Shown here in pieces: positions 27,847 to 30,640 of a stretch of 64,000 nucleotides of DNA. The notes beneath the pieces were generated by a model. The model searched no databases. It had not been told where the DNA came from and saw nothing but the letters and a program-made list of their open reading frames with translations. Position 1 is the stretch's first letter. Each line of letters opens with the position of its first letter. The stretch comes from a bacterium (GTDB lineage Bacteria > Vulcanimicrobiota > Vulcanimicrobiia > Vulcanimicrobiales > Vulcanimicrobiaceae), in contig JAJYFL010000005.1 in assembly GCA_021790935.1 (NCBI GenBank), positions 62,001-126,000 of the forward strand, in the 5' to 3' direction. The translations under genes and the position numbers were made by a program.

Positions 27847-28734
27847 CTAGAACGAAGGGCGCCACGCGGTCGCGGCCGCGAGCGAACTGACGATCGCGCG
27901 GGTTGCCGGCGACCTGTTGAGCGTATAGAAATGTATGCCCGGCGCGCCGCGTCGCAGCAGGTCGGCGCACTGTAGCGTCGCGTACGCGACGCCCAGATCC
28001 TCGACCGCCTTGGGCTGCTCGCGGCGCTCTTCCAACTCGACCAATAGTTTCGGCGGGATCGTCGCGCCGCACATGGCCGTGAAGCGCGCGATCTGCTCGT
28101 AATTGGTGATCGGCATGATGCCGGGAACGATCGGCACGGTGATGCCGGCCACACGCGCGCGCTCGACGAAATCGAAGTATCTGTCGTTGTCGAAGAACAA
28201 CTGCGTGATCAGGAACTCCGCTCCGGCGTCGACCTTCTCTTTGAGATGCCCGAGATCGGTGCGCGCGTCCGGTGCCTCGACGTGCTTCTCGGGATAGCAC
28301 GCCGCGCCGACGCAAAAATGATAGCTCCGCTCGAGCATGGCTACGAGTTCGGATGCGTGCGCGAAGCCGCCCGGCGCGCGTTCGAACGCCTCGGCGCTTC
28401 GCGGCGGATCGCCTCGCAGAGCCAGGACGTTCGAGATTCCGGCGGCTTCCAACTCGGAGAAGACCGCCCGCAGGTCGCCTCGCGAACTTCCGGTGCACGT
28501 GACGTGCGACATGACGTTGATGCCGAGTTCGTTTTGTATCTGCTTGGATATCTCGATCGTGCGCGCGCGCGTCGAGCCGCCGGCGCCGTAGGTCACGGAG
28601 ACGAAGGCCGGGCGCAGCCACCCGAGCGTCCGCACCGTCTCGAGCAGTTGGGCGTGGGCTTCGTCGCTCTTGGGCGGAAAGAGTTCGAACGAAAAGAACG
28701 GCCGCACCGTCGCGAGCGCTTCACTGATCCGCAT
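27847..28734 (-). CDS. metF: Methylenetetrahydrofolate reductase
   Basis: This 295-residue flavoenzyme reduces 5,10-methylene-THF to 5-methyl-THF for methionine synthesis. Features include the N-terminal FFSFELFPPKS with the catalytic Glu, SVTYGAGGSTRART, HVTCTGSSRGDL, NVLALRGDPP and EFLITQLFFDNDRYFDF. It is the expected length. It lies inside the flagellar export operon, 10 bp after fliP and 56 bp before fliQ, an unusual place for a one-carbon metabolism gene. Confidence 0.96.
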   Translation of the reverse strand: MRISEALATVRPFFSFELFPPKSDEAHAQLLETVRTLGWLRPAFVSVTYGAGGSTRARTIEISKQIQNELGINVMSHVTCTGSSRGDLRAVFSELEAAGISNVLALRGDPPRSAEAFERAPGGFAHASELVAMLERSYHFCVGAACYPEKHVEAPDARTDLGHLKEKVDAGAEFLITQLFFDNDRYFDFVERARVAGITVPIVPGIMPITNYEQIARFTAMCGATIPPKLLVELEERREQPKAVEDLGVAYATLQCADLLRRGAPGIHFYTLNRSPATRAIVSSLAAATAWRPSF

Positions 28735-28744
28735 GGCACGGCGT

Positions 28745-29401
28745 TCACCTAAAGCTTGCCGCGATTCCTCCGCAGACGAGCGCCCAGCCGTCGACCATCA
28801 CGAAGAGCAGCAGTTTGGCCGGCAGCGAGATGACCGGAGGGCTCAACATGAACATCCCTAAGCCCATGAGTATCGAGGCAACCGCGAGATCGATCGCGAC
28901 GAACGGCAGATAGATCGCAAAACCGATGGCGAAGGCATCGCGCAGCTCGCCGACGACGAACGCCGGGATCAGCACGAAGGCCGGCGCGCTCGCAGGCGGC
29001 TCCGGCGAGCGGTGCGCCACGCGCTCGAAGGTCGCGATATCCGCGATGCGCGTCTGGCGCAACATGAAGGCTCGCAACGGCCGCGCGGCCGCGCCGACGA
29101 ACTGCGACTGGGTGAGCCGCCCTTTGCCGTACGGCTCGAGCGCGTCGCGTTGAATGCGTGCGAGCGTCGGCGACATGATCGCGAAGGTCAGGACGAGCGC
29201 GAGTCCGGTGATGACGCTATTGGGCGGCAACGCCGCCGCGCCGATCGCCGAGCGAACCAGCGAGAGCACCACGACGATGCGTACGAACGAAGTCGACATC
29301 ACCAGCACGAACGGCGCGACCGAGAGCAGCGTCAGCGCAGCCAGCACGTCCAGCGGAAGCGTCCCACGCGCGTGCGACGCGATGCGAAGCAGATCGTCCA
29401 T
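28745..29401 (-). CDS. fliP: Flagellar-type export protein FliP
   Basis: This 218-residue protein is the core of the export channel. The family signatures are VMSTSFVRIVVVLSLVRSAIG near the N-terminus, LAVASILMGLGMFMLSPP and ISLPAKLLLFVMVDGWALV at the C-terminus. The gap between fliN and fliP holds a large perfect inverted repeat. The next gene downstream is metF instead of fliQ. Confidence 0.94.
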   Translation of the reverse strand: MDDLLRIASHARGTLPLDVLAALTLLSVAPFVLVMSTSFVRIVVVLSLVRSAIGAAALPPNSVITGLALVLTFAIMSPTLARIQRDALEPYGKGRLTQSQFVGAAARPLRAFMLRQTRIADIATFERVAHRSPEPPASAPAFVLIPAFVVGELRDAFAIGFAIYLPFVAIDLAVASILMGLGMFMLSPPVISLPAKLLLFVMVDGWALVCGGIAASFR

Positions 29402-29439: not shown

Positions 29440-29547
29440 CAGCCCGTTGCCGGCACGTTGCCGCCCGGGCGCGTGTGAGGTCGCGCCGAAGCCAGGATGG
29501 CGAAAATGCGCGCGTCGCCCGGGCGGCAACGTGCCGGCAACGGGCTG
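29440..29547. repeat. Perfect 32-bp inverted repeat between fliN and fliP
   Basis: Arms at 29440-29471 and 29516-29547 are exact reverse complements over 32 bp; they begin CAGCCCGTTGCCGGCACG and end with its complement. The spacer is 44 bp. There is no coding gene across it. It could form a very stable hairpin in the transcript, or be a small mobile element (MITE-like) or a short invertible segment. Confidence 0.92.
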
Positions 29548-29561
29548 AGCGCGCGGCGCTG

Positions 29562-29852
29562 CTACGCGAGCCGCTGGATCAGTTCGGTGATGCGGACGCC
29601 GAAGTTGTCGTCGATCGCGACGACCTCGCCGCGAGCGACGAGCTTGTTGTTGACGAGGAGATCGACCGGCCCGCTGGCCAAACGGTCGAGTTCGACGACC
29701 GATCCGGTGCCGAGCTTCAGCACGTCGGCTACGAGCATCTTGCACTTGCCGAGCTCGGCGGTAACCTGCAGGGTGACGTTCATGAGCAGGTCGAGGTTCT
29801 GCTGGTCTGCGCCCGCCTTCTCTTGCTGTTCGGCAGCCATTGCGGTACTCAC
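29562..29852 (-). CDS. fliN: Flagellar switch protein FliN
   Basis: This 96-residue protein is a single SpoA/surface-presentation domain: [20 protein letters not shown], then [21 protein letters not shown], then [21 protein letters not shown]. It forms the bottom of the C-ring and a sorting platform for export. The GTG at 29852 overlaps the fliM-like stop (GTGA) and has a GAAGGGAG ribosome binding site, so this start is preferred over one at 29909. Confidence 0.95.
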
Positions 29853-30640
29853 GCTCCCTTCGGACCGGCAGAGACGATCATCGCACTCCGGCCGCCGATC
29901 GATCCGCACTCGCCGCGCGCTACGACCGCTCCGGCCACCTTAAGCATAGCCAAATCGCCTACCTTCGTATCCATCACAACCTCGCAGCCCGGGCGCAAGC
30001 CGAGGATGCCGGCAGCGCCGATGCTCCCCGAGGCGAACTCAACGCCAACCTCGATCTCGACGTCGAGCAGGTCCTCCGCGCGCAGATGGCCGCGCCTCTC
30101 GGGCGCCGGATCGCGCGAGAGCGCAACGCCGATGCGCGCGGCGAACGGGTGCTCGACGATCAGCTCGAAGTAGGTGGCGTACCCGCGCACGCCGGCGACG
30201 CGCTCGGCGGGCGCCGGATCGCGAATCCCGCAGACCGCCGCGACCGTCGTGCCCAGCGCGCGTACGACGCGCGCGAGAACCTCTCGCTCGATCGGCGAGA
30301 GCGGCCGCGGCTCGCCGCCGGCCTCTCCGAACGCAGCGGTCGCCAGGGCGAGCGCATCCGGCGGGCGCAGCACGAACGCCGCGTCGGCAATCGGACCGCG
30401 CAACCGGAAGATCTCGGCTTGCGAGGCGATCGCCGCCCACGCGGCTTCGTCGGGGATCGCCGGCTCGAGCAGCCGCAGCGAGACGCCGGTACCGTAGGCT
30501 GCCGCCAGCGCTTCGCGCGCGCCGTTCGCGACGACGCACGCCGCCGAAACCGGCAGCGACGACCGGGGCTCGAAACGCGCGCGCCGCACGCGACTCCCCG
30601 CGCACTCGGCCGCGCGTTCGAAACCGAGCACCGGGATCAC
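29849..30640 (-). CDS. fliM: Short FliM-like flagellar switch protein
   Basis: This 263-residue protein ends in a SpoA-type domain ([35 protein letters not shown]) and has a FliM-like middle part containing [16 protein letters not shown]. It is about 70 residues shorter than standard FliM and lacks the N-terminal LSQxEIDALL peptide that binds CheY. The GTG at 30640 overlaps the previous stop by 4 nt. The upstream extension of the frame to 31474 is a shadow of other genes. Loss of the CheY-binding peptide suggests a switch without chemotactic control. Confidence 0.78.

Follow-up and report, generated by a model that had tools for sequence, protein, structure and literature searches.

The 32-bp inverted repeat between the flagellar genes fliN and fliP in the stretch of DNA analysed here (64,000 nucleotides, hereafter the window) is, we think, likely though by no means certain to be a shortened member of a non-coding palindromic element family that is dispersed in genomes of the class Eremiobacteria. 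On balance, these elements are best read as mobile palindromes akin to REP and REPIN sequences, with an architecture turned inside out. With this reading, a single palindrome becomes a class-wide element family whose architecture is opposite to that of REPINs. Moreover, with arms that change together and mismatches biased by strand, the family allows a test of whether perfect inverted repeats persist by selection on a folded strand or by templating of one arm by the other, and its hairpins behind infB, atpG and fliN provide natural material for the study of intra-operon control.

The inverted repeat between fliN and fliP

An inverted-repeat search of the window revealed two arms that are complementary at 32 of 32 positions and separated by a 44-nt spacer (Table 1), exactly as the sequence-only reading had described them between flagellar genes. 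Base composition alone would lead one to expect ~8e-12 such 32-bp arms, and the next-best perfect inverted repeat in the window (spacer ≤120 nt) is 14 bp long. The repeat takes up most of the 160-nt gap that extends on the minus strand from the stop codon of fliN to the ATG of fliP. Folded as RNA, this minus-strand gap reaches -111.7 kcal/mol, with a z-score of -8.4 against 200 shuffles, in line with the stable hairpin that had been considered possible. No promoter was found in the region of the window copy, and a scan of the same region gave no intrinsic terminator; the 10 nt after the stem contain one T, with no U tail. As at least five T within 10 nt after the right arm occur in only 3 of 78 copies of the family, the proposal of an ordinary transcript-end signal is not supported. 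Within the flagellar cluster, a gene for methylenetetrahydrofolate reductase (27847-28734, minus strand; PF02219, E 3.1e-94) separates fliP from a FliQ-like gene (PF01313).

Table 1. Features of the inverted repeat and its flanking genes (positions in the window)
Feature	Position	Strand	Basis or remark
fliP, downstream gene	28745..29401	-	Pfam FliP
fliP-side arm (3' arm on coding strand), 32 bp	29440..29471	-	sole part remaining in sister species G002
Covariance model R1 match	29456..29531	-	50.1 bits, E 1.5e-7
Short core, 44 nt	29472..29515	-	fits ~84-nt full core cut between two CCATCC repeats
Conserved core motif CGCCATCCTGGC	29491..29502	-	motif search
fliN-side arm (5' arm on coding strand), 32 bp	29516..29547	-	inverted-repeat search
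fliN	29562..29909	-	Pfam FliMN_C; stop codon 14 nt ahead of element; start codon provisional

A dispersed element family

By its nearest named relatives, the genome is a MAG of Candidatus Eremiobacterota. A search of this genome for further copies had been proposed as a check: a whole-genome DNA search detected no second copy of the window arms, whereas CGCCATCCTGGC from the spacer was detected at 12 places and its reversed control at none. Several of these places hold elements constructed like the window copy, and many further places carry the 12-mer without long arms. The 12-mer is present in 34 of the 41 genomes searched.

A covariance model, R1, was built from 16 copies that did not include the window copy, and its E-values are rough throughout. 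It finds the window copy with an E-value of 1.9e-6 at genome scale and 1.5e-7 over 209 kb. Among 60 relatives, R1 gave 213 matches in 35 genomes at E ≤ 0.01, with none in the five genomes from outside the class; at E ≤ 1e-4 it matched 76 of 149 Candidatus Eremiobacterota genomes, all 76 in one class. As the family was discovered via one 12-mer, divergent copies are under-sampled in these counts, which come mostly from draft MAGs with simple gene calls. The members dispersed in the same genome and in its relatives set the repeat apart from a lone inert palindrome, the outcome under which the sequence-only reading would have lapsed. For the window, Rfam gave no match above the gathering score and, at E ≤ 1, just sub-threshold matches of microRNA precursors to the hairpins, and a limited literature search found no dedicated report on repeats in Candidatus Eremiobacterota. 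Judged by literature searches and Rfam alone, this suggests that the family is undescribed.

Architecture of the elements

Each full copy in the genus of the window and in genome G008 consists of two near-perfect, copy-specific arms of 30-46 bp that enclose a core of 83-86 nt; across the family, arm length is even, with a median of 33 bp (n = 91), and the median core is 84 nt. Read on the strand of the upstream gene, the first arm is followed by ACG or CCG (65 of 69 full cores), a hairpin tipped with CATCC or CATCG, the tetranucleotide CTAC or CTGC, a second hairpin tipped with CGCCATCCTGGC, an end resembling CTCA(G/C)A and the other arm. On the opposite strand, a tag adjoins the first hairpin, which reads GTAG in 46, GCAG in 17 and neither in 6 of the 69 full cores. 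The window copy has neither this tag nor the full two-hairpin core of ~84 nt. The closest match to its 44-nt core is copy L250 of G012 when cut between the two CATCC repeats of that copy, and the core fits a full core that would have lost ~40 nt between two CCATCC repeats.

Comparison with known repeats revealed a mixture of shared and reversed features. According to Di Nocera et al. (2013, PMC3733652), REP sequences bear a GTAG tag with GYAG variants, beside a hairpin of 6-13 bp, and lie between unidirectional and convergent genes. The present elements resemble GTAG REPs in the short hairpin by a GTAG or GYAG tag and in being extragenic, non-coding, dispersed and located behind coding regions, with unidirectional or convergent neighbours, but they have one tag between two hairpins, inside arms of 30-46 bp, reach at most ~20 model matches per genome, and mostly occur in tested hosts without a RAYT. 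A REPIN, as described in PMC3116915, is a doublet of REPs that forms a hairpin with conserved ends and a variable middle. Similar to a REPIN as portrayed there, the element is a long palindrome with compensatory changes in a variable stem and a presumed single-strand mobile unit; by contrast, its middle is conserved and its ends vary. We therefore regard the family as neither REP nor REPIN: it has the tag, short hairpins and a location behind genes in common with them, but a conserved middle with variable ends is the reverse of the REPIN plan.

Bacterial MITEs such as NEMIS and ERIC are non-coding, 70-300 bp long and bounded by inverted repeats, lie near genes and give co-transcribed hairpins, and the terminal repeats of a MITE are alike in all copies. 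The elements share the non-coding nature, the length range, the inverted-repeat ends, the position next to genes and the co-transcribed hairpins, but their terminal repeats vary from copy to copy. The earlier suggestion of a MITE thus applies to a dispersed, non-coding, MITE-like element and fails on the arms. NEMIS and ERIC are both named among bacterial MITEs in PMC3733652. Compared to a Rho-independent terminator, the element is likewise a stable hairpin behind a stop codon, but it lacks the U tail and has a loop of 44-86 nt.

Arms that change together

Comparison of seven orthologue pairs in the genus, which are not all independent since three of their copies share one locus, revealed 10 compensated against 9 one-sided changes over 222 positions, where independently changing arms would give fewer than 0.5 compensated changes. 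Five orthologue pairs of the related genus g36, misaligned by the ungapped comparison, were left out of these counts. Four of the ten compensated changes are transversions, which cannot go via a G-U step. In 79 aligned copies, 94.5% of the paired cells are standard pairs, compared to 60.3% in shuffled and 37-48% in slid controls, a figure that leans towards structure because the alignment was fitted to R1; all 16 arm pairs show changes on both sides. The co-changing arms of orthologous copies back the active maintenance that had been read from the perfect arms. The recent origin read from them does not follow by itself, because arms are kept alike within a copy while they diverge between copies.

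Further analysis of the mismatches revealed a strand bias. On the sense strand, the arms of 78 copies contain 112 A.C, 30 G.T and 61 other mismatches, and the 112 A.C mismatches are wobble pairs when viewed from the opposite strand. Of 12 untied genomes, 10 show the A.C excess, which persists when G008 is left out. As a sense RNA stem should favour G.U, the pairing looks, from these comparisons, to be kept at the DNA level or on the antisense strand rather than as an mRNA stem; a mutational bias could be another source of the excess.

Similarity among non-orthologous arms differs between genomes: pairs alike at p ≤ 0.05 number 17 of 28 in G008 and 31 of 66 in G036, against 5 of 105 in G034 and 0 of 3 in G012. 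The window arm resembles the arm of L271 in the same genome, with 46 of 60,000 shuffles as good and 8 of 40,000 other window 32-mers matching the L271 arm as well as the window arm does, a likeness that is suggestive only, since L271 was the best among 84 arms compared.

A separate short hairpin lies a few nucleotides before the fliP start codon in relatives (type GGGTAACGC....GCGTTACCC; loci L132, L137, L138, L141, L142, L144-L146, L151, L156, L159, L164, L166 and L168, and the fliP loci of G011 and G031) and is absent in the window. By contrast with the arms, it tolerates G-U, with nine G-U and one other mismatch; 99.4% of its cells are paired and 5 of 11 pairs have changed on both sides. 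It resembles a conserved element of the sense RNA or an operator.

Placement behind genes

In a placement test of 81 copies, which was done without gene scoring, 66 copies follow, within 60 nt (median 14.5 nt), a sense open frame of 120 codons or more, and 34 are followed by the end of an antisense frame; where a frame is found on one side only, it is sense in 39 and antisense in 7 cases (p 2e-6). The window copy is a sense copy, 14 nt behind the fliN stop codon. Besides fliN there are 65 such upstream frames, and all 26 that were tested gave Pfam matches. The gene-scored context of 62 copies is ++ in 29, +- in 27, -- in 6 and -+ in none, in a table that omits 7 orthologues, copies with arms below 15 bp, the window copy, 13 copies without two flanking genes and 5 that overlap an open frame. 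A copy is located behind infB at 9 of 29 loci (28 genomes with infB loci; 30 searched), seven sense and two antisense. The fliN-fliP gap of genome G036 holds a copy whose core is of a different type; most relatives have no element there, and the gaps of 49 relatives' loci contain no exact arm longer than 13 bp.

An element kept as sense-strand mRNA structure, with a 33-bp stem that stabilises, ends or processes the upstream transcript (for instance as an RNase III substrate) and here sets fliN apart from fliP, is possible, though on the unlikely side. The strong sense bias, the closeness to stop codons, the recurrence behind infB and in the fliN-fliP gaps of G000 and G036, the very stable fold and the covariation all speak for it. 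However, the sense strand has fewer G.T than A.C mismatches, the reverse of what an RNA stem would give; moreover, four of the ten compensations are transversions, the core is inverted at two loci, two of the nine infB copies are antisense, and the gap of most relatives is free of the element. For the mobile palindrome that we prefer, co-transcription with fliN and fliP would likewise be expected to produce a highly stable hairpin in the mRNA; as a side effect, this may reduce the expression of fliP compared to fliN.

Spread and loss of copies

Comparison of related genomes revealed full, shortened and missing copies at shared loci. The fliN-fliP gap of the sister species G002 is 78 nt shorter than that of the window and contains the fliP-side arm, but no core and no second arm. 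Between atpG and atpD, full copies exist in G000 and G001, while in G002 the element is missing except for a remnant that is identical to the product expected of a deletion between two GGCGG repeats. Also in G002, the L078 locus has lost the right arm and half of the core, and the L076 locus has no element. In sister species, cores of 44 nt are found at L089 (G001) and L082 (G002), where the orthologues have 85-86 nt. In G088, from another genus, the G008 copy L270 is absent without a trace and the L268 site holds a remnant. A check for target-site duplications showed the empty sites to carry deletions or remnants; the search for an autonomous element covered Y1_Tnp only.

The presence and absence of copies, the deletion forms and the near-identical cores within genomes point to spread. 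We propose that the copies would spread as non-autonomous mobile DNA via a folded single strand, namely the GTAG-bearing strand, which tolerates wobble as expected of such a strand. What keeps the arms complementary may be selection on the fold, a copying process in which one arm of the hairpin serves as template for the other, or both. Arm-to-arm copying at hairpins is known from quasipalindrome mutagenesis; here it would explain arms that are matched yet drifting, and it goes with inversion of the core. The instability of long palindromes may lead to the recurrent deletion forms, and the window copy is probably no longer mobile.

The mobilising enzyme would not be a RAYT in most hosts. Y1_Tnp (PF01797), the RAYT domain, is matched in 4 of 21 genomes and missing from 17, and it was not found in the copy-rich genomes G008, G034, G036 and G037-G039; the genome of the window has partial matches only, at two places. 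A RAYT as mobiliser is thus unsupported. Several points count against the mobile palindrome itself: the search for a mobilising enzyme, with Y1_Tnp in 4 of 21 genomes, identified none; the sense placement and the recurrence behind infB would fit a selected mRNA element too; the loci are mostly from draft MAGs; and arm sequence is shared in some genomes (G008 and G036) and hardly in G034.

Tentatively, and with a rather small chance of being right, the elements may be a class of mobile palindromes that copy via the hairpin, such that in each round of movement or replication one arm is built anew with the other arm, or the target, as its template. Recognition would then be limited to the core, which alone would be conserved for that reason, and the arms would drift without limit yet always match each other perfectly. 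Such palindromes would depend on a mobilising enzyme that has so far not been linked to REP-like elements.

Origin of the arms and inversion of the core

It is improbable that the core inserts and copies ~30 nt of its flank in inverted form, the arms being native DNA. Arm sequences do differ between copies, and in G008 the inner arm parts are shared while the outer parts are unique to each copy; the fliN-fliP gap of G002 has one arm only, with its junction at the core boundary, and the left arm of the atpG copy takes in the last codon and the stop codon of atpG. However, the G002 gap measures 82 nt, compared to mostly 42-70 nt in readable element-free relatives, which makes the remaining arm extra length. 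The resemblance of the window arm to that of L271 and the G002 atpG sequence, matching a GGCGG-repeat deletion to the letter, also argue against a native origin.

Two related proposals were tried and dropped. The presence of GCGGCAAC in the gap of relatives had suggested that the fliP-side arm is native, but the arm is extra length; by a count made by eye, L124, L126, L129 and L131 have a GCAA[CT] 22 nt upstream of the ATG, apart from the arm. Insertion into pre-existing terminator hairpins is unsupported, the atpG-atpD sequence of G002 being accounted for by the repeat deletion.

A core that inverts between its arms as a phase switch and thereby alters fliP expression is very improbable, although one part of the invertible segment envisaged earlier did hold up. 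Among six loci shared in g36, the core is opposite between matching flanks at two (L278/L285 and L279/L290) and in the same orientation at three; the sixth, L275/L288, was not counted as an inversion because only one of its flanks is matched. These inversions are between species. Against a switch stand the lack of a promoter in the region and a core that is itself nearly a hairpin, and no mixed orientations were seen. Apparent core flips in G088 (L329 and L330) were rejected as snap-back artefacts at contig ends.

These two G088 contig ends count against the mobile reading as well, and they show that such hairpins can yield snap-backs; even so, chance or an assembly artefact has a negligible claim on the window copy, which lies inside a 190-kb contig with differing flanks and matches a family found in 76 of 149 genomes. 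At L094, L096 and L100 (G008) and at L329 and L330 (G088), the contig either stops within the core or closes with a snap-back of its terminal sequence, indicating that the elements break assemblies.

Other arrangements and repeats

Pairs of elements in facing orientation, a few hundred nucleotides apart, occur at L238, L247, L256, L261, L279, L281 and L287. Type-1 copies of the genus adjoin a separate repeat like GTCACCCTGAGCTTGTCGAAGG at L074-L077, L082, L083 and L088, and at L076, in the genome of the window, one element is followed by tandem partial copies of core and right arm. Other long palindromes, with no R1 match, are found in the atpG-atpD gap at L215 (G019) and L223 (G016), and perhaps form a second element family.
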